Origin: a virus
Strand: one strand, 5' to 3'
Length of the DNA: 44,076 nt
IMG/VR virus record: IMGVR_UViG_3300046008_000864
Span: 1 to 44,076 of that record
In this document: piece by piece, positions 837-41,105 of the stretch
Layout: each line of letters begins with the position of its first letter
How positions within the stretch are numbered: the stretch's first letter is position 1
Position numbers and translations under genes: made by a program
The notes under the pieces: model-generated
Seen by the model: the letters and a program-made list of their open reading frames with translations, nothing else
Told to the model about the DNA's origin: nothing
Databases searched by the model: none

Positions 837-1010
837 ATGGCAGAAGCACCAGCATTAAAATCAGCAAAAACAGTAACTTTAGTTACAGAGTTTGATATTT
901 ATGACTCAACAGAAGGCGTAGCAACCTGGTATCGTTCAGGTGATACATTTGAAGTAGTCCCACCTTTCTTGCAAGTGCAGGTTGAGTTGGGCGCGGCAAA
1001 ATTAGTTTAG
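837..1010 (+). CDS. Small hypothetical virion-region protein, 57 aa
   Basis: ATG at 837 follows a clear ribosome binding site (TTAGGAG, 824-830) and the frame ends with TAG at 1008-1010, giving 57 residues. The protein starts MAEAPALKSAKTV and has alternating hydrophobic residues suggesting a small beta-rich domain, with no membrane segment and no cysteine. It lies 14 bp after the coat gene and 16 bp before a strong terminator, so it is probably co-transcribed with the coat gene and may be a small head or decoration protein. I do not recognise the family; the role is inferred from place only. Confidence 0.65.
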   Translation: MAEAPALKSAKTVTLVTEFDIYDSTEGVATWYRSGDTFEVVPPFLQVQVELGAAKLV

Positions 1011-1026
1011 ACTAGTTAGCTTAAAG

Positions 1027-1053
1027 AGCCTCGCTTCGGCGGGGCTTCTTTTT
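1027..1053 (+). terminator. Rho-independent terminator after the capsid unit
   Basis: An 8-bp stem, AGCCTCGC (1027-1034) with GCGGGGCT (1039-1046) and one G-U pair, is closed by a TTCG tetraloop and followed by TCTTTTT (1047-1053). It separates the capsid transcript from the next unit. Confidence 0.9.
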
Positions 1054-1069
1054 GGCATAAAAAAAAACA

Positions 1070-1099
1070 TTGACAACAACTAAGCGTAGGGAGTAGGCT
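1070..1099 (+). promoter_or_regulatory. Candidate sigma70-type promoter for the 1156 gene
   Basis: A perfect TTGACA (1070-1075) lies 18 bp before TAGGCT (1094-1099), a weak -10. It falls directly between the capsid terminator and the DUF3102-like gene, which would give that gene its own transcript. Confidence 0.5.
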
Positions 1100-1112: not shown

Positions 1113-1139
1113 TTATAGTTAATTTAGTTATTTTAGTTA
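1113..1139 (+). repeat. Three tandem 9-bp direct repeats before the DUF3102-like gene
   Basis: TTATAGTTA (1113-1121), ATTTAGTTA (1122-1130) and TTTTAGTTA (1131-1139) stand head to tail with a shared core TAGTTA. They fall between the candidate promoter and the gene start, in the likely 5' leader, where an operator or translational control site would sit. The low complexity of the region means chance is possible. Confidence 0.45.
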
Positions 1140-1155
1140 CTTTAAGGGTAAGGTT

Positions 1156-1869
1156 ATGAACGATTTAATTGATGTCAATGATATGACGTTAAATGAGATT
1201 CAAAAAGAAAACGAGTTAAAAATTATAACAGGCAAGGAAAAGCTTGATAAGTATTCGTTAGGCGAGTTGGCTTTAGCCTACGGTAGAATTGAGGGTGTAG
1301 TAGCACTGGCGAAAGGAAGAATATTATTAGCTGCGAGAAAGAAATTTATCAATGATGTTGAGTTTGGATGCTGGTTGAGAGACAACGGAATTGATGAATT
1401 TACGCAACAAACCAGATACAGATACATGCAATTAGCAAAACATTTCTCAGAACGGGAAATGACAGGTATGTCTATGTCAGTATGCGCGGAAATTGCGATG
1501 GTGATGAACCAGGATAGGGAAGTTGGAAATAAAGCATACCAGTACGCACTAGGACGTGGATTAACTAAAAATGAAATACTAGCTAAGATTGCGGAGTTTA
1601 AGGGTAAGCCTGTCCCTGTAGCTAAACAAAAAGAGGGAGCGACTTATGAAGGTAGCTCTGTAAGGGTTCAACAAGAATCTTTTGCAACCACACCTGTTAC
1701 TACGCCACCTCGACCAGCACCTGAAGAGCCTAAAAATTCAGCGGTTGAGATACTCACGGTTGAAGACAAGTTAATTTACACAATAAAAGATTATGATATA
1801 TACGAACAGTTGAGAATTATTGAGCGTTGTAAAGAAATCTTGGAAGAAAAGATTATAAATAATGTCTAG
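1156..1869 (+). CDS. DUF3102-like DNA-binding-type protein, paralogue of the ParA partner
   Basis: This 237-residue protein shares a co-linear block with the ParA-linked protein encoded at 38787-39386. Shared elements, aligning without gaps at an offset of 2, are SLxELAxxY (34-42 here), KGxILLxAR (53-61) and DxEFGxW (67-73). A later RxRxM...AKxFxxRxxTGxS stretch, an EIxxxIxxxKG segment and a short C-terminal helix also match. The L-x-AR...EFGxW pattern resembles the DUF3102 family found in phages and plasmids. A proline-rich linker (about residues 155-198) precedes the C-terminal helix. ATG at 1156 follows AAGGGTAAGG. The gene has its own candidate promoter and a terminator upstream, so it is separate from the capsid transcript. 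A second partition protein or a transcriptional regulator are both possible; there is no direct evidence of DNA binding. Confidence 0.65.
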   Translation: MNDLIDVNDMTLNEIQKENELKIITGKEKLDKYSLGELALAYGRIEGVVALAKGRILLAARKKFINDVEFGCWLRDNGIDEFTQQTRYRYMQLAKHFSEREMTGMSMSVCAEIAMVMNQDREVGNKAYQYALGRGLTKNEILAKIAEFKGKPVPVAKQKEGATYEGSSVRVQQESFATTPVTTPPRPAPEEPKNSAVEILTVEDKLIYTIKDYDIYEQLRIIERCKEILEEKIINNV

Positions 1870-1875
1870 TTGAGG

Positions 1876-1881
1876 TATAAT
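1876..1881 (+). promoter_or_regulatory. Candidate -10 box for the connector/tail operon
   Basis: A perfect TATAAT lies just after the stop of the preceding gene (1869). No strong -35 is visible; TTATAA (1853-1858) is 17 bp upstream. The predicted start site would lie about 1887-1890, inside the palindrome at 1879-1908. This also argues that the following gene starts at ATG 1910 and not at ATG 1880, which lies inside the -10 box. Confidence 0.45.
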
Positions 1882-1908
1882 GCATCCATCAAAGTTGAAG
1901 GATGCATT
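1879..1908 (+). promoter_or_regulatory. 9-bp inverted repeat overlapping the candidate promoter
   Basis: AATGCATCC (1879-1887) and GGATGCATT (1900-1908) are perfect reverse complements with a 12-base centre that itself holds TCA/TGA pairing. Position over the -10 and predicted +1 fits an operator, and as RNA it would form a hairpin next to the AAGGA ribosome binding site (1899-1903) of the gene starting at 1910. Confidence 0.5.
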
Positions 1909-1909
1909 T

Positions 1910-2377
1910 ATGTTACCCGTAGGTTTTACCGATACAGATAAAATCCGCTCAGTATTAGGTTTATCAGAAAAAGATAGTCCAGATTCACGTTTAGTTGTGA
2001 GAGACTTGGAGAAAGAGTTAAATCTTGATTTATCAAGTTGGATTAGTGGTATTCAGACGATTGTAGATTCTGTTAGTTATGGGTCAACTATACCTGCAGA
2101 GCTAAATATTGTTGACGCTATCGGATTATACTCAACTTACTTTTGTGCAAAACTTGTCATACCTTCGCTTCAAATGTCAGCAATACAAAGTATTTCTGAT
2201 GGCAAAAATTCAATGGATAGATTCAGCAGCATTAACTGGGATAGTTTATACAACCAGTTATCTGAGCGAGTTGCTTTTTACAAAAAATTGGCTATGGACA
2301 ATAACAGTTCAGTCGCAGTTGTAGCCTATCCAAGATTCTCCTTAGCTGGATCTGAGCGTGACTCAGTGGTCGGGTAG
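1910..2377 (+). CDS. Head-tail connector candidate
   Basis: ATG at 1910 has GAAGGA 7 bases upstream and yields 155 residues. An in-frame ATG at 1880 would add ten residues but overlaps a perfect -10 box, so 1910 is preferred. The product is largely alpha-helical with a short N-terminal strand, and its size and place (first gene after the capsid unit, before the completion proteins) match the small helical adaptor or connector proteins that bind under the portal in long-tailed phages. No diagnostic motif is visible, so the role comes from synteny. The 3' end overlaps the next gene by 20 bases, implying translational coupling. Confidence 0.5.
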   Translation: MLPVGFTDTDKIRSVLGLSEKDSPDSRLVVRDLEKELNLDLSSWISGIQTIVDSVSYGSTIPAELNIVDAIGLYSTYFCAKLVIPSLQMSAIQSISDGKNSMDRFSSINWDSLYNQLSERVAFYKKLAMDNNSSVAVVAYPRFSLAGSERDSVVG

Positions 2378-2969
2378 TTTGGACTTATCCACAGCTGCCT
2401 CATACTTTACAAATACAACCATTAGTGGCTGGAACGGAACCTCATGGGTTCCAAACGTAGGCACAATTGCAATACTCCCCTCTGATCGATTTGTTTCATT
2501 CCATGAGTTCGATACGAACTGCCAATACGCATTAACTGAAGTATCTTCAACGGCTTTAGACGATTATTCAATAGTCCGAGTTGATGTTACTGACCAAGTT
2601 TTCCTTGTAGGATTTAAGACCAGTGACGTAAATGGCGATCAGTACAGTAAGTTTTACTTATTACGCCGTGCTGATTCTCAGGGTGAATTACTCTCTCAAT
2701 TAAAAACGTATGCTGCCTCTGGAGTGGTTAACGGTGCAACACGCCAAAGTGTGGGGTTGTACTACTGTGATGTTGAACACGTCACATCTGCCACGTCATC
2801 AATGGTCAAGACAAGTAAATATTCTGATAGTCTAATTTTCATGCCTTCCGATAGTGTTTTTGACACGTCTAATGAAATTAGAATAGGTGATATGTTTTAC
2901 GAAGTTCGGGATGTGTATGCCAGTTCAGGGTTTAAGGTGTGTAGAGCCATAGGGAAGAAACAGGTATGA
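2358..2969 (+). CDS. Head closure/neck protein candidate
   Basis: The gene begins with GTG at 2358, inside the end of the upstream connector gene, and gives 203 residues. The product is beta-rich with many short hydrophobic strands, including a late segment around residues 175-195 (IGDMFYEVRDVYASSG) that looks like the beta-barrel style of head-closure or stopper proteins. Identification is from gene order between connector and tail completion candidates. It ends with an ATGA overlap with the next gene. No membrane segment is seen. Confidence 0.45.
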   Translation: MTQWSGSLDLSTAASYFTNTTISGWNGTSWVPNVGTIAILPSDRFVSFHEFDTNCQYALTEVSSTALDDYSIVRVDVTDQVFLVGFKTSDVNGDQYSKFYLLRRADSQGELLSQLKTYAASGVVNGATRQSVGLYYCDVEHVTSATSSMVKTSKYSDSLIFMPSDSVFDTSNEIRIGDMFYEVRDVYASSGFKVCRAIGKKQV

Positions 2970-3421
2970 GTTATGCTACATTTTCTGTTGCATTAAAATC
3001 GACGATAGATTTCTTAACGAAAGAAGTTGCGGATGGGAAATCGTTACCGTTCTTTGACTTCGCCTCACCTGAATTTGACATGACGTTAGTTGCGCCTGAA
3101 AAGCCTGCAATCTTTTGGGATTTCACAGGCTTAGACGAAACCCCATTTGACCCGCTTTACACAGCGAGTTTTGATGTGGGTGCCATGACAATGTTAGACC
3201 CAAGCCAATACATATCCTTAGACATCATTGGTGCTATATCCGAAAAATTCAGAGTAGGCACGAGTCACGATATTTACGATTACAGTGGTGATGTTGCCTC
3301 TAATGTTTTTGAAGGAAGATTTCATATTGTATCGTGTGGTTTATCACCATCTCAGCAAGACCAATCTACTAATGTACGCAGTGTTTCTGTGGTCATAAAG
3401 GTGCTTAGAAATGTCGGGTGA
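2966..3421 (+). CDS. Tail completion/terminator protein candidate
   Basis: ATG at 2966 overlaps the previous stop (ATGA). The 151-residue product has a helical N-terminus and a beta-rich remainder with a C-terminal strand (VRSVSVVIKVLRNV), similar in size and layout to tail terminator proteins that cap the tail tube. It is the third of three overlapping genes between capsid and major tail protein. The family is not recognised with certainty. The 3' end overlaps the next gene by 11 bases. Confidence 0.45.
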   Translation: MSYATFSVALKSTIDFLTKEVADGKSLPFFDFASPEFDMTLVAPEKPAIFWDFTGLDETPFDPLYTASFDVGAMTMLDPSQYISLDIIGAISEKFRVGTSHDIYDYSGDVASNVFEGRFHIVSCGLSPSQQDQSTNVRSVSVVIKVLRNVG

Positions 3422-10000: not shown

Positions 10001-13000
10001 CCAGGCGATGCAAATAACCCCAACCACTCAAGAGATGCTGCGCGAGTAAAGAATTCAAAAGAAGAAGATTATTTTAGAAAAACAGGTGTAGTGATTGGTG
10101 CAGGTATGGCGGACTTGCTTGCACAGCAAACAAAAGGTATGGAGAAACCGACTAAAGAGTTGGAATCCCTAAAGAATTATACTGATTCACCTGATTCACT
10201 TTTGACATACTTCAAGGATTCACAGGCTAAAAAGGACGTACTTAACGCCACAATCGTTGATACAGTTGGAGGTGATAATAGCCAGAAGCTAAGTGAACAG
10301 TTATTACAACAGTTATCGAAAGCAGACCCATCGAAAGATAACAGTGATTTGATTGAACAAATCAAGACACAATTCCGAGGTACAAATAGTGTTTCTTCTG
10401 AGAGTTTTAGTAAACTTGTACTGGGTGCAAAAGAAATAACAGAACCACTAACAGGCACAGTTAAAGGTTTACGCGACCTTTATATGAGTCTCGTTACTTC
10501 AGAAGAAGAGCTTTCTAAATCGGGAAAATTAGAGCTTGAAGCAATATCTGAACTCATTAAAAATCCTGTTTTTAAAGGGGCGATTGTTGACAACAAGGCA
10601 CTAACCCCTGCTCAAGCTGAAGAATTTATTAAGGCGGTACAGGAGAAAGTTGCGCCTGTTGCGAGACAAGCACAAGAAGATTTAAAGACTAAAGCTGCAC
10701 TAAACATCGGGCAACAAACATTAGAAGTTGGAAACAGCGAAAACCCTGATGAAAAGAATGTGTTCACAGCTACTCGGAATGACAACATACGTTCTGCGTT
10801 GGAAGCGAATGGAAAAGAATTTGCAGGTGTTTTAAAAACTCAAATCACAAATCAGGTTAAGGACTATAAATTTTCTCCTGCTGTGGAATCTGCGCTTCTT
10901 CTTGATGCGAATAATCAGATAGAAACAGTATTACAAGAGTTGAATAAAACTGTTTCAGAAAAAGCTGAAGCATTGATTGTTGCTTATACTGATCAGATTT
11001 CCAATTTAGATTTAATCCCTATTGAGAAAAGGGAGCCTGAGCAACAACGTGCAGCTGGTGTTATGTTTACGGAAGTTAAACGTCTTAGTGGAGGGATGAA
11101 AAAACACCAAGACATCGTAAATGAAGCGGCAAGTACCTTGGGTGTTGATCCGTTTGAGATTGCTGCGAGAGGACAGCATGAAAGTAATGGGAATGAAAAA
11201 GCCCAGAACCCAGAACCTGGTTCGTCTGCACGGGGGGTAATGCAGCAGCTAAACATCTCAAGAGAACAAGTTAAACAGTGGGGATATGATAAGCAGTTTG
11301 GTTTTGGTATGGATCCGTTTAATGCTAGGGATAGTATTTTCGGTGGTGCTTCAATCATCAAGGGCTTAACTGAGAAAGAAGGCTTCAAAGATGAACAACA
11401 GCGCCAGCTTGCGTATCATGCAGGACCAGCGTTAGCTCGGGAGTTGATAAAAACTACAGGTGGTGATTTCAACAAATTACCTGAGCCGTTCAATTCTGCA
11501 TTAAAAGAATACAATGCGATGAAGGCTGATTTGATTCGTCAAAATCAAACTCAGGGAAAATTAGATTTACCTGATGCCGAAAAGACTGTTGATTTAAAAG
11601 TATCCCCGAATGTAGCCCACTCGTCTACAATTCTTAAAAATACTAAAGCAGCAGAAGACGCTAGGAAAAAGCAGGTGTACACGGAAGCTAACAGTGTAGA
11701 AATCGAGGCAAGAAGACTCGAAATGACACAGATGCAGCTTGATTTTAAGAATGATAAAAAGAATGACGATAATGATGCAGCAAGAGCTGAGTTTAGTGCA
11801 AAGTTGTATGAAAAACAGTTAGTTGATTTAAACGGTGCTATTGATTGGGCAGAGAACACTCAGGATTTTCCAAAAACCAAAGTAGGACATAAGGCAAGGG
11901 CAGCAGCTATTGCTAAAGCGCAACAAGCAAAGCAAGATGCGGATATAAGCCAAGCTGAAAGCCAGTCTAAGTTAACTAGAACTGATGGGAGAACGCCGTT
12001 TAATGAGAACGATCCTAAGTATGTCGCGTTTAGAAATCAGTCTACTGATGCTGAAATTAAAAAAGCCAATTACATTGCGGAACATGGTGGTTCTTCGGGT
12101 AAACAAGCACAACCGATACTAGACGCTTTTGATGCAGAGAAGAAAGCTGGCGTAGATGGTATGGCAGCTATGAAGCTGGAGCATACCCAAAAATTCAGAA
12201 CCAATGCAAACGAAGAACGTGATGGTTTAGGGACAGATGCAAAGGTCGCAGAATTAAAAAGGCAGCAGGATAAGTCCGATGCAGAATTTGCTCTGACGAA
12301 GAAAAAACGTGAAATAGAAGCTGCTAGAGTTCCGTTTAATGAGTCAGACCCTACTTATAGAAGTCACGAAAAGGCTGCTGTAGACCTTGGCGTTGAAATG
12401 GACAACTTGGCAGCAGCTAATAAACATGACCCTGCTTTAGACTCTAAGGATAAAGAAAGAACTGCCCATATCGTAGCCAACCTTAATGATAAGTTACAGA
12501 AAAGTCTTGCTTATAGCTGGAACGATGTTGAAAAGGAATTAGGGAAAGATACAGCTGAACGTGATGACATCACTGCTAAGATTGCTAAAGAAAATACAGA
12601 TTTAGCTAAACGTATCAAAGAACGCTCGATTGAATCAGTTCTTAAAAATATCCAAACTGAGCTGAAGGTTCTGGATAAAACGATTGAGTTGAATGATACG
12701 AATTCAAAGGTTGCAGAGGACTCAGGAAACTTAACACTGTTCAATGAACTTGAGGCACAGAAAACTAAGTTAGTTGAAGATCGTAGACTCAAGAAAATAG
12801 AAGAAATCAAGGCAAACCCTGACAAAACAAATCAGGCTCAGGATTTGATTGATGCTGCAGATGAAGCGAAGAAAGCGAAAGAAGCCTTGCATGATGTTGG
12901 GTCATTCAATACTTTGGAAGCAGCAAAATTATCTAAAGTAGTTGATAAGCCTATTGAAGGAGCTTCAAGAAAAGGTCGTCAGGACGCATTAGGACATACG

Positions 13001-18406: not shown

Positions 18407-21400
18407 TGGGCGGTAAAGAGTCAGGCGGTCCCATAACCATTGGTTATCATTACTTTTTGAGTATGCAGTTAGCCATTTGTAAAGGACCCGTAGATTATGT
18501 AAAAGATATTCGCTCGTATGAAAACGTCATTATTCATGGTAAAAATGATATAGAACAAACTAGTTTGCGACCATCTTTAAGAAGTGATGGGAGTTATAAC
18601 ACGGATGATTTACTTTCTGTGAATGTAGAGCATCCAAATATCTATGGTGGGGTTAAGCGAGAAGGTGGCGTGGGTGTGTCGGGTACGGCTAATGGGAGTA
18701 CCGTGTACTTAGCAAATGGTGGGTATTCCCAACCGCGTATGACACGTCTCGCTGAGTTAGTTGCAGGTACAGGAGAAAGTCGTAATGCTATTACATCGTT
18801 TGGAGCTTCACCTAGTGCTTACGTTCCGATTACATCCTTCACTTTAAAAGACTTAGCACAGCATTTAAGATCAACTGTTATGGCTACTCCGAGTAATGTG
18901 GATGTAGCAACAACATTAGTTGCAGAAGATATACAGATTCTTGTAGAAACAAAAGTAGTTACGGATCCAGTTACAAGTGCGCCTGTATCGACTACAGAGG
19001 AGAAGAAAGTAGTCGTAGCAACGACAACAACTACGACTCAAACGTCAGTTGTTCCTGTTACTCAGAACGCACTGGTAAACGAGGTTGGTTACGCTGATAG
19101 ATTATCCGCATACCGAGGAATTGCTTATTGTGTGTGGGATGACTTGCATTACCAGACGAATTCCTCACGACCCAAGCCGTGGAACTTTAAAGTCTGCCGT
19201 GTACCGTTTCGACTTGCTAAAACTAAAGCGGGTAAAGCTATAGGGGTAATCAATAATGATACAAAGGATAACGTCAACTCTATAGCACTCATGGGTGGTG
19301 CGGATATGGGGAGTGTGTCCAAGAAAGGGGGAGTGGGAGACCCTTCTTTCAAGATAAACGATATGCTCGTGACTTTCCCATGGAAGAAAACGGCTTACTA
19401 CACATCTAATGGTCCAGCAGGTAAACCATATGCACTTGATCAGTTTTACTGGAATGCAAAGGTAATCTGGACTGGTCGCAAAATTACAGCTGACTCAGGT
19501 GTAAAAACAGTAGTCCCACCTAGTGTTGTATCGTGGGCGTATTACGAGTTGACTACGGGGCTTAACGAGTCGGGGACTTCATCACAAGTGTGGGTAAAAC
19601 TGGAATGGACTCAGGCTTTCTGTGCTGCTATCAGTAGCTCTTACTACGCTTCTGCGGAGGTAATGTTCAGCCAAGCAGATAAGTTAGCTGAAATTGCATC
19701 CCAATCTGTAGCATCAAATGACGGGCGTAAAGCATCACATGAAGAAGCAAACCCAGCCTTGATCATACTTGAGTGCTTAGTTAGCCCTGAATATGGAATG
19801 TCATACCCATTAGAATTCATTGATTTTGATTCTTTTGAATTTGCTGCGGAAACACTAGCTACAGAAGAATTTGGGATGTCTGCGGTATGGGAAAACAATG
19901 CTACTGTGGAGGACTTCATAAGCACAGTCATTCAGACGATCAATGCGGTTTTATATGTACATCCGCTAACAAGCAAATTCACGCTTCAACTTATCCGTAA
20001 GTGGACTGGAAATAAGAAACTGGCGAATGAATATAACGTCTTGGAGATGAGAAGTTTTGCAAGACCCGCAATATCGGAACTTACAAACCAAGTTACGTTA
20101 CAGTGGACAGATGCGATCTTGGGTACTCAGCGTTCAATGACTGTGCACAATACAGCTATGAGAGAAATGCAGGGAGGTATCATTGGTACGATTAGAAATT
20201 ACGTAGGGATTACGTCTGATAAACTCGCAAACCAATTAGCTGCAAGGGATTTAGCTATTTTATCTCAGCCATTAGCAACCGTGGAGTTAATTGTAAACAG
20301 AGATTTTATGGACTCTCATCTTGGCGAGGTGATTGAATTTCACTGGTTAGACCTTGGCATCGAAAGCATGATCTTGCGTATTGTGGATATTGGATATGGT
20401 TTAATTGAAGATGGAAGAATCACGCTGAAGTGTGTTGAAGATGTGTACAACGTAGGTATTGCCTCTTTCATTCCCATGTCTGAGCCTGAAATGGCAGCAG
20501 TAAAAACAGACACTGCTCACATACCCGTGGAGTATGACTTAGTAAACTTAAACTATGTTGATTTGCTCAGATTAAGATTACAGGCAGGTGCTACAACTTC
20601 CTTTGATTACGTTGATACATCAGGTGGTGCTATTGCAGCTTTCTGTGGAGCAAAAACCGAGAATGAAAAGATATTTGAGTTGGCAGTTAGAAGTACCATA
20701 GGCACAGGAATTATCGAAGTAGATAATACCCCATCAGATTACACACACCCTGAAAATTCTAAGTTGTACAGAACTATTGGAGTCTACGATACTGTCCCTT
20801 ATGCTGAAACAAGCGTTTTAGCCCATCGCCATGAAACAGTAATCCACCTAAACGTAGAGGTAAGTTTGCTGTTACAAACCGTTAAAGGTCAAGATGTGTA
20901 TGCTTATTGTAACGGGGAATACTTGCAAATCATTGAATTTGGGGTTAACTACGAAACAGTAACTGTTGGACGTGGATGTATATCATCTGTACCACAAGAA
21001 ATTCCTGTAGGGTCTACTATCTGGTTTTACAGCCAAGATTTAGACAAAGTTACTATTGATATTGAATGGGTAGCGAAGCAACAGATTGGTGGAACCATGT
21101 TCCCTGTCTCGAATAATAACCGCCTTAAAGATGAGAATGCGCCACCTACGAAAGTTGTTACAGTGAATTCAAATTGGGCAAACCCTTACCCACCTGCAAG
21201 CATTGGTGTTGAGTCAGATGATAGCGGATACATGCGTATTCACTGGAAGCATAGGGATGCTGTGGCACAACAAGACAAGTTGTTAAGCGAGTCTGATGCG
21301 GGTATGCCAAGAAGACCAGGTATTTACTATGCCATTCGTGTACTGACTACGGATGGAAACCTAACTCCTAACCCAATGAATATACCCAGATACGTTGGTG

Positions 21401-22422: not shown

Positions 22423-25400
22423 AACTAATACCTAACGAAATTTTCATCGATGAATTATCAAATAGAACTTATTTTAATGACAATGGTAAATTAAGACTTA
22501 TCGCTACGATAGGAGCCCCTGCGGGTTCTCCTATTGAGTTAGACGGCATTACAGTTGAAGAACTAGTCACGACTAAAGCCGATTTCTACGCTGATAATAA
22601 CCTGATTACCACACCAATTACTGATGCTCTCACGAGTGTAGTTTTTTCAACCCCAACAGACGTAGGTGACGGCACGGTTGATTTTCGTGCTTCTTGGAAG
22701 TGGGAACACGTGGATGTTAACGGTAAAATCGTTCAACCAATAGACGGGTTTTTTATTCAGGTTGTAGGTTCTACAGCAGACGTAGCCGCAGATTTCACAC
22801 TCAATAGCAAAACGTCAGGTGACATCATAAAGTTCTTACCTGCTGTGGGAGGTGATCATAAGACGTTTCATTACACGTTTAATGGCGTAATGAATTCTTT
22901 TTACACGATGAGAATCACGCCGTACAGAACTGTGAAAGCGTTATTAGCTTCTGAGGCTACAGTTATTTATGGTCCACCCACAACATCAAGCAGAACACAA
23001 AGCTATGCGTTAAAATTCAATAACATAGACGTATCAGCATTAAGCATATCTTACAATAATGTCATAGAAGATGGAGTAATTGAGCCATATGAAAAAAAGT
23101 TCTTTGTACTCCCTTACTTAGCCAAAATAGCGACAACCCCAGATTCAGAATATAGTAATGTCCTTGCTAAACTAGCTGGACTTACGGGGATACCTGCTAG
23201 TCTCACGAGCAACATAACAACAGCCAGAAATGCGCTTAACCAGTTGTTGACTCAAACATACCACGAGGCAAAGCCAGATAACACAGCAAGCACGGTTATG
23301 TCTGATCTTTTAACTGGAGCGAATCGGAAAAAGACGCATCTTATTTCTGACAAAGCTTTATTCCTCGCTGTGTTTGACACGTATGAGAAAAGCCTAATTT
23401 CTATTGACTTTGCGATTACACTTTTCTTGCTAAACGCAAATGATCAAGCTCAAGGCTTAATTTCAACAATCGCTGACTTAATTATGGACGTTGGAGAGCT
23501 TGTTAGTTTAGACGCTCGCTTCCAAGCAGTAACTGATTCTTACAATAACCATTTGATGGCTGCGGCGGTAACGAAAGCTAGTATTACACCAGTTACTACA
23601 GCGTTTAATAACCTTAAAACAGGGCTGACTACACCCAGATTTACATTGTCTGCACTTAACGTAACGTCAAGTTCAGCAGATACACCGTTTCTGCCAAAAT
23701 TGAATGGTGGTGCTTCGAGTAGTTTAAGGCGTATTTTTGTTGATCGCGTAGACGTGATTACTTTTTATAACCTATGGGATGCTTGGTATGCCGCATCAGA
23801 CGCATTTGATGTAGTAACTAAGGCAGCATCAGAATCGACTTTAACAAGTATTTCTTCATTTGACCATAGTACGGACTACCGTATAAACCTATTATCTCAG
23901 TTGGATAAAAAATGGGGTCTTATTTTAACCAATAGCTTTCAGTCTACGTTGCTTAACTGGCTAGATGATACATGGGAGAAGAAAAATAACAAACTAATGG
24001 TGAACAATAACGTAACAAATACGTTAACTACCTTACGGGCACAACTCCTAACTCTGCTCAATGCTAATCAAGATACATTTAATACGAAAACTTATGTATT
24101 TGCACAAGACGTAACAACTATTAAGACTTTTAAGGGTAACAATGCGTATATTATCTTAAAAAGTATTACCTCTTTAGAGTCTCTGTTTAACAAAGCTGTT
24201 GAGATGTATGTTGCTAAACAAGCATTAGCCATAAGTTTAGGGTTGAGTCTAAGTCAAATTTATTCTGACTCAAAAACACTTGCACTATTTCTTGCTGCGA
24301 ACACTTTACTCGTGTTTGTAAAAGGTGATCAGTATGTTGACAAACTTACAGGATTACGAAGTCATTACGATGGCACAACCTGGGTTGTGGACTCTATCAG
24401 TGTTGACTCAAATATCCCAGATGGTGGTGCAGATTTTGCAACTTTAAGCGATTTGTTAGCGAAAACAGCGAGTTTCGGTAACGATTCTGTTATCTCTATT
24501 GCTGAAAAAACATCTGGATCGGGTAGTTTACAATCTCTTCTTGATACAGCAAGACTTGAATCGGAAAAATTTACTGCTGATATTGCAAAGTACAACATAA
24601 CAACAACATACGCGAGTAAGTTTGCAGCATTAGAAACTATGTTGACGGTTACTAGGCATGAGATGCTAAAACCTAATTTAAAATCGTATAGCCCAAATTG
24701 GTACAGACGTATGTTTGGTACGGGTACTTCAGTCTACTTTGCTAATGGTAGTTCTGGGGGGTATGTAGGTGGTAGTGACACGAAATGTAATAACAAGGTT
24801 GATCCGATTGCGTTTAATTTAGTGATTGCTGATTACCTTGCAGTGCGTGTGGCGTTAAAGTCAGCTATTACTGAAGCCGCAAAACTCGTAATTGAGCCTA
24901 CCGCAACAGTAGTTACGACAGATCCAGAAACTCAACTCCCTGTGACTGTGACCATTGTGGATTACATGAAAGGTGTGGACACAATTCTTGATGATGACGT
25001 GATTGTTAGTAAAGAAAAGACAGGATTGAAGGCAATTCTTGATGACGCTAAAGCTGAACACGCTGATGTGTTAGAGCGATACAGATTCTACGGTGTCCCT
25101 GATGCAGGGTACACATCAACTTACAATGCTTTAGTTACTGCGTTGGAGGTTACTCGTTATCAAATTTGTGACATGCCAGGCAAAAAACTTGTGGTTAATC
25201 GCTTCAGTCGCTTGCTGGGTATTGAGAAAGAGGAATACACATCAACGGGGGTAATTAACAACACAGGTGGAAGAGCTTACAAAACCTGTTACCAAAAATC
25301 ACACTTAATAACTGATATTGCAGCATTCAGAGTGGTTATTGCTAATTACCAGTTGAGGAGAAATACAGCCGCTAAATTGCATGAAAGAGGGAAATGGGTA

Positions 25401-40262: not shown

Positions 40263-40290
40263 ACAATAATAATTTTGTCTGTAGGGGATA
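40255..40290 (+). promoter_or_regulatory. 11-bp inverted repeat, candidate rep operator
   Basis: TATCCCCTACA (40255-40265) and TGTAGGGGATA (40280-40290) are perfect reverse complements with a 14-base AT-rich spacer containing AATAAT-like -10 sequence. The left arm overlaps the last iteron and shares its CTACA, and the right arm ends two bases before the rep ATG. This is the classic arrangement for Rep dimer autorepression. Confidence 0.8.
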
Positions 40291-40292
40291 AA

Positions 40293-41105
40293 ATGCCGCA
40301 CATACCGCCCATAGAAAAGCTCGTGGTAGTTAAACACAATGACTTGATCGATGCTGCCCAACAACTTTCCGTGCTTGAAAGCAGGATTATTTTGACTTGT
40401 ATCTCCCGCGTCAACTCAAAAGAAGTGTTGGACCCAAGCATTAAATTTGTCCTGTCTGTTGAGGACATCAAAGACCTTGTTGGTGTGGGAGGGAGAAGTG
40501 CGTATGAGAACCTACGCGATGCGGTGAACAGGTTAGCTGAACGCTGGGTTGTTCTGTTAAAGCCATCCAAAAGAATTTCAGAAAGAAAAATACGCTGGGT
40601 TTCTGAAATTGCGTATATACCAACAGAGGGGGTTATTGAATTATTCTTCACACCAAGCATTTCAAACCTGCTAAGTGACATTACAAAAAACTTCACTCAG
40701 TACAAACTCGAGAATGTGCTTGGGTTCAAATGTATCTACAGCATAAGATTCTACGAGCTGTTCAAACGATGGGGAGGAACAGGAAAGGAGATTGACCTTG
40801 AAGATTTGCAAGAACTGTTAGAACTAGGTGATAAGTATGCTAGGTGGGATAACTTCAAGGCAAAGGTCCTAATCCCAGTGGTAAAGGACATCAATGAAAC
40901 ATCTGATGTGAAAGTGAGTTGGGATCAAGTACATCGTGGGAAGAGGGTGAGCGGTATAATCTTTGCTTATTCTTTACCGAAGAAAGTCACCACGCAAAAG
41001 AAAGCCCCAACAAGTAAACCTGCTGAGGCTAAAAGTGACTTGTCCCACAAAGAAGAACTAGTGAGACGATTCGGAGAGGACATTGTGAAGAAGTACAAAA
41101 TGTGA
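40293..41105 (+). CDS. Rep_3-family plasmid replication initiator
   Basis: The product (270 residues from ATG 40293) matches the Rep_3/RepB initiator family: VVKHNDLIDAAQQLSVLESR and IILTCISRVN near the start, the first winged-helix domain to about 120, then TKNFTQYKLENVLGFKCIYS and IRFYELFKRW (about 135-165), the signature of the second winged helix (Y-x-L...K-x-x-YSxRxYELL). The C-terminal tail is Lys/Ala-rich. ATG at 40293 follows AGGGG in the operator arm. TTG at 40275 is in frame but lies in the operator spacer and is not preferred. It binds the four iterons as monomer and represses its own promoter as dimer by family precedent. The gene faces away from parA and converges with nrdB. Confidence 0.95.
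   Translation: MPHIPPIEKLVVVKHNDLIDAAQQLSVLESRIILTCISRVNSKEVLDPSIKFVLSVEDIKDLVGVGGRSAYENLRDAVNRLAERWVVLLKPSKRISERKIRWVSEIAYIPTEGVIELFFTPSISNLLSDITKNFTQYKLENVLGFKCIYSIRFYELFKRWGGTGKEIDLEDLQELLELGDKYARWDNFKAKVLIPVVKDINETSDVKVSWDQVHRGKRVSGIIFAYSLPKKVTTQKKAPTSKPAEAKSDLSHKEELVRRFGEDIVKKYKM

Follow-up and report, generated by a model that had tools for sequence, protein, structure and literature searches.

The DNA analyzed here (the window, 44,076 nt) is an IMG/VR virus record overlapped at 99.9–100% by two further IMG/VR records, G001 (23 kb) and G002 (70 kb), which also overlap each other, at both ends. The mutual overlaps of the three records imply a circle of about 93 kb, of which the window is about half; the comparison of the circle and the gene lists were made piecewise, on the window, G001 and G002. 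Because a Rep3 initiator with 22-bp iterons, a ParA and virion genes are found together, the element was recognized as a phage-plasmid. The features considered below are collected in Table 1. The capsid gene crosses the start of the window, with the whole ORF of 399 aa located at G001 11266–12465, and capsid relatives at about 39% were found in Vibrio and Pseudomonas phages of the SHOU24- and PMBT3-like kind. In its early region, the phage of the window carries repeated segments of about 100 bp that include gene starts (G001 22592–22922, G002 2207–3118).

Table 1. Location of the analyzed genes and signals in the 44,076-nt window.
Feature	Position	Strand	Basis or remark
Major capsid gene, C-terminal 269 aa	13..822	+	phrog_3922 major head protein, E 1e-24
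57-aa gene, conserved beside the capsid gene	837..1010	+	same-place homologues in L035 (59 aa) and L064 (79 aa)
Intrinsic terminator, closes the capsid unit	1026..1047	+	-18 kcal/mol, z -3.4
Promoter candidate: TTGACA, 18 nt, TAGGCT (weak -10)	1070..1099	+	read from the sequence
Three direct 9-bp repeats, TAGTTA(A/T/C)TT	1116..1144	+	candidate operator or centromere-like site
P0001, 237 aa, lone late-site homologue of the ParA partner	1156..1869	+	ORF, BLASTP, tblastn
TATAAT in the conserved promoter-like element preceding the next late gene	1876..1881	+	sequence comparison
Hairpin	1880..1907	+	the ribosome-binding site falls within the right arm, which adjoins ATG 1910; the left arm and the -10 box overlap
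Next late gene	1910..2377	+	position suggests head completion; start probably 1910 instead of the listed 1880
P0002, ParA partner, 199 aa	38787..39386	-	shares 10 nt with the end of parA; phrog_4571 E 7e-7
parA, 207 aa	39377..40000	-	AAA_31 E 1.2e-19; phrog_164 ParA-like partition protein E 2.5e-47
Iterons, 22-bp, plasmid origin	40174..40255	+	repeat search
Rep3 replication initiator	40275..41105	+	PF01051, E 1.8e-33

The original prediction, made from the sequence of the window, held that P0001 and P0002 are related, that only P0002 is paired with parA and that P0001 could be a second partition-type protein placed among virion genes. Both ORFs were present at the expected positions, and no ParA gene adjoins that of P0001. 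Similarity of the two proteins clearly exceeded chance: pairwise BLASTP gave 43/128 identities (34%, 64 bits, E = 2e-17), tblastn within the record recovered the match with E = 2.5e-14, and the Smith–Waterman score of 156 lay 24 sd above that of shuffled sequences (mean 33, sd 5.2, maximum 59). The shared blocks were confirmed at an offset of 2 residues (SLGELALAY at 34–42 of P0001 and SLEELADRY at 36–44 of P0002, KGRILLAAR/KGLILLEAR and DVEFGCW/DKEFGQW). The block described as gapless indeed runs for about 95 residues without a gap, but a 2-residue gap follows within the alignment. The C-terminal helix is also common to both proteins (residues 215–236 of P0001 and 179–198 of P0002 in the models), with an aligned Cys.

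A gene of the P0002 type was found directly behind parA in three phages (that of the window, G003 and G004), on a Methylobacter plasmid and at all seven genome loci recovered, among which L060 has both parA and the partner broken and one locus shares with the window the divergent arrangement of Rep3 and parA. Such a location is good evidence for a partition cassette, and P0002 belongs to this group of ParA plus DUF3102-like cassettes (Methylobacter sp. YRD-M1 plasmid, L057–L062, G003, G004). The P0002 type may be regarded as a genuine ParA partner, with its partition function deduced from the association with ParA. Cellular partners of this type were encoded on the Methylobacter plasmid, in a Methylococcaceae bin and in Bathymodiolus methanotroph symbionts, with further relatives in proteobacterial bins without closer names and in one bin labelled Bacteroidetes. 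In view of the methanotroph relatives, the host of the phage is probably a methanotroph, probably one of the Methylococcales. Five AAGTACAC copies precede parA in phage G004 (L017 7150–7290) and are likely a centromere or operator array for this ParA family. A distant P0002 relative in Vibrio phage henriette 12B8 (L013 1297–2421) is fused to a C-terminal DnaJ-like domain (sub-threshold match) and is encoded two genes upstream of UvsX, no ParA being annotated among its neighbours.

The designation DUF3102-like was only partly justified. The score of P0001 against the Pfam DUF3102 profile (PF11300) was 13.8 bits, below the curated cut-off of 24.4 bits, and P0002, P0012, P0016 and P0017 gave no match; P0001 also had no match to phrog_4571. 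It is the predicted fold that speaks for the relationship. The AlphaFold model of P0001 is all helical, with a core pLDDT of about 90 or more, and appears to resemble the predicted fold of viral DUF3102 proteins, which were several of its top Foldseek matches. The best BFVD match was a viral DUF3102 protein (E = 0.011, prob 1.0, TM 0.40), others following with E between 0.27 and 0.8. A fold look-up in the PDB revealed no solved structure alike (best E 3.0 and 0.47), a weak sequence match to KEOPS Pcc1 was judged spurious, and P0001 or P0012 had no matches among isolate phages and plasmids. The literature on DUF3102 yielded nothing about function. Helices 67–76 and 84–97 of P0001 were assigned, on the model and a reading of the motif, as a candidate helix-turn-helix. 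The segment of residues 83–98 is identical in P0001 and P0012 at 11 of 16 positions, the top value of all 16-residue windows, and corresponds to the predicted second helix of the turn, presumably the recognition helix.

Homologues of P0001 were identified at the same site in two other phage lineages, L035/G006 (34% over 220 aa, E = 4e-39), the capsid protein of which is 54% identical to that of the window, and L064–L066/G008–G010 from three metagenomes (42% over 159 aa, E = 4e-35 for L064). The gene order is capsid, a gene of 57–79 aa, terminator, an inserted gene in two of the three, the P0001 homologue and head-completion genes. In the tree, P0001, P0012 and P0017 formed one clade (support 100/100) apart from the ParA-linked proteins, a late-site clade known from these three lineages only. 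P0001 is a true homologue of the ParA partner, as had been claimed, but its being a copy of the phage's own partner was not supported; recent duplication of P0002 in this phage as the source of P0001 was ruled out by the trees. Compared with the proteins of the ParA-linked cassettes, P0001 has a homologous core and C-terminal helix and differs in the missing adjacent ParA, in its N-terminus and in its clade. Another orphan, P0016 (G005 19788–20459), arose independently: it follows virion genes, at the end of their block, and groups with a ParA partner, whose first 20 or so residues it does not have. The 30-kb G005 contig carrying it contains no ParA.

The boundary where the capsid unit meets the P0001 homologue is a hot spot of insertion, occupied by a GIY-YIG/NUMOD3 homing endonuclease gene in L035 (7160–8464) and by a different insert encoding a 640-aa DUF723/Mom-like protein in L064 (1362–3284). 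These inserts just upstream would fit P0001 being a passenger, a relic associated with mobile elements that plays no role in the phage. The intact frame, the core conserved in three divergent phages and the conserved flanking elements indicate selection on P0001, and a passenger is the least probable of the explanations considered.

The P0001 gene constitutes a separate transcription unit within the late block, as had been proposed. The terminator upstream was confirmed, and terminators occur at the equivalent place in L035 and L064. Of the promoter proposed for the gene, the TTGACA at 1070–1075 is present, but no good -10 box lies at 16–18 nt and the promoter scan listed none. The upstream boundary of the unit is marked by a clear terminator and a weak promoter, and there is no classic terminator downstream. 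The gene is followed by a promoter-like element that would serve the next late gene: GGTATAATGCA is also present in L035, with TATAAT kept in all three phages, and none of 2000 shuffled pairs shared 11 nt in the comparison of the window with L035. GGTATAATGC was considered as a phage-specific late promoter and rejected, since its two other sites (exact or near) have ordinary TTGAC -35 boxes and it looks like a host sigma-70 type. The next gene probably starts at ATG 1910 rather than at 1880, as homologues and signals indicate; its product is 60% identical to that of L035 9321–9794 and weakly matches the second post-capsid gene product of five Vibrio/Pseudomonas phages.

The hairpin at this start (-16.6 kcal/mol, z -5.5) was the strongest among 80 gene starts tested. 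L035 forms a hairpin by a different sequence (-19.9 kcal/mol, z -8.0) and L064 has no start-masking hairpin, so that this part of the insulation is found in two of the three phages. A transcript starting at 1888 has no left arm and folds at 0 kcal/mol. In phage T4, read-through transcripts of late genes are untranslatable and late transcripts are translated. With the left arm absent from the promoter-started transcript, read-through from P0001 would likewise be untranslatable and late transcripts would be translated, which suggests that P0001 is expressed while virion genes should be silent.

The same signals bear on the proposal that P0001 is a packaging or virion-associated protein, produced late along with the head as a structural or DNA-binding component. 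Its site between the capsid and head-completion genes would suit such a role, as would the fact that it occupies the place of a different gene of about 160 aa in relatives. However, the terminator and the hairpin separate it from the late genes, and the large terminase gene and its neighbours lie away from the P0001 site. Moreover, profile comparison revealed no similarity to the 160-aa post-capsid protein, so that descent from that gene was discarded, and the family is otherwise one of plasmid partition. With a separate clade kept at the late site in three phages, the packaging role suggested originally found no support, and a virion function appears very unlikely.

The leader of P0001 contains three direct 9-bp repeats, an arrangement equalled in none of 1000 shuffles and in 1 of 815 window segments. 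The leaders of P0001 and L035 have TATAGTTAATT in common, with 11 nt reached in 10 of 500 shuffled pairs (2%), and AGTTAWT was over-represented in the leaders of L035 and L064 (13 of 3000 shuffles), although this motif, short and AT-rich, was picked once the leaders had been seen. Copies of the leader repeat elsewhere in the phage were evaluated as multiple binding sites and dismissed, their number being near chance level.

The most telling comparison is with the 54-kb G008, which encodes the late protein P0017, Rep3 (45%) and ParA (38%), arranged as in the window. The gene behind parA in G008 (51041–51307; L076 11041–11307, - strand) encodes an unrelated protein of 81–88 aa, perhaps of the ribbon-helix-helix type as judged by weak Arc-like matches (E = 0.23). 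No second member of the P0001/P0002 family was found within these 54 kb, a part of the genome being missing. By sequence comparison, the two par loci represent a non-orthologous exchange of the partner at a syntenic position with ParA conserved; as the incomplete G008 stands, the late gene appears to be kept whichever partner ParA uses. Partner swaps behind a conserved ParA are known from mycobacteriophages (PMC7157519).

The N-terminus also separates the two groups. A [KR]xR motif within the first nine residues, regarded here as the putative contact to ParA, was present in all eight ParA-linked proteins scored and in none of the four orphans, which represent two independent events and make the statistics modest; the Methylobacter partner has it too, as found by eye. 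Elsewhere among ParA systems, the partner uses a basic residue at its N-terminus to trigger the ATPase. By analogy with those systems, the loss of [KR]xR suggests that the orphans probably lost the ability to trigger the ATPase of ParA. P0012 and P0017 have N-terminal lysines, which might substitute for the motif.

These data were set against the idea of a second centromere-binding adaptor, in which P0001 would sit on the 9-bp repeats, share the single ParA of the phage and so provide the late region with another site of segregation. In favour of it are the relationship with the ParA partner and short direct repeats resembling phage parS arrays; in RedRock, parS holds eight direct copies of an 8-bp motif (PMC7157519). 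The P0001 leader has only three repeats, and none in common with the parA/origin region. Neither the [KR]xR motif nor an adjacent ParA is present, and the P0001 type, a clade of its own, is retained beside a ParA with a non-homologous partner. A second centromere binder is quite unlikely. It is unlikely, too, that the lone adaptor and its centromere-like repeats form a second DNA-organising site in the virion block, independent of ParA or sharing it, which would couple the plasmid state to the silencing of late genes.

P0001 resembles phage morons, which are extra genes amid virion genes, with their own signals and absent from more distant relatives. At its site, five Vibrio/Pseudomonas relatives and L068/L069 do not have it, and no member of the P0001/P0002 family was found anywhere in the genomes of the five or in L068/L069. 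It differs from morons in having been kept long in three lineages, and its lysogenic expression is presumed. An insulated, moron-like unit could encode an incompatibility or superinfection factor, with P0001 made by the prophage binding the centromere or the ParA of related incoming plasmids and blocking them. Many related ParA-partner plasmids occur in the same host group, and phage ParB proteins are thought to diversify and so to avoid incompatibility (PMC7157519). Exclusion genes, however, usually turn over, whereas P0001 is conserved by three lineages in a slowly changing context; its N-terminal motif is lost, and this role is considered improbable.

The preferred explanation, with about an even chance of being correct, is that P0001 stems from the partition-adaptor family and is a DNA-binding protein with expression of its own, probably regulating itself. 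Since its gene is insulated and has no motor protein (ParA) beside it, P0001 would more probably regulate by binding DNA than serve as a second segregation protein. A member of the ParA-partner family would have settled permanently, without its own ParA, at the site between capsid and head-completion genes in a phage-plasmid lineage. Its own promoter would drive its expression, probably while the phage persists as a plasmid prophage, and the putative helix-turn-helix would recognize the AGTTAWT repeats of the P0001 leader, making P0001 an autoregulator. Perhaps it also controls the late promoter next to it; its role would be that of a transcription factor and not of a segregation protein. A regulatory link to the late genes is possible and is the preferred direction.

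There are precedents for parts of this arrangement. KorB of plasmid RK2 forms a clamp of the CTP-dependent ParB type. It is a DNA-sliding clamp and a partition-type protein that acts as a transcription repressor (PMC11790492), unlike P0001 in that the Pfam search detected no ParB domain in P0001, nor in P0002. The parABS systems of the extrachromosomal mycobacteriophage prophages RedRock and Miko likewise combine a phage-plasmid and its ParA with partners of diverse families and with sites made of short direct repeats; there parB adjoins parA, and no lone homologue in the virion region is noted in the accessible part of their description (PMC7157519).

The analysis documents a ParA plus DUF3102-like partner family in methanotroph plasmids and phages, to which the libraries searched assign no function, and the replacement of such a partner by an unrelated small protein where ParA itself is conserved. 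The P0001 locus is a compact system in which to test how a phage-plasmid silences virion genes while expressing a gene among them. If the proposed explanation is true, a plasmid-segregation family would have been re-used as a stable part of a phage late region.
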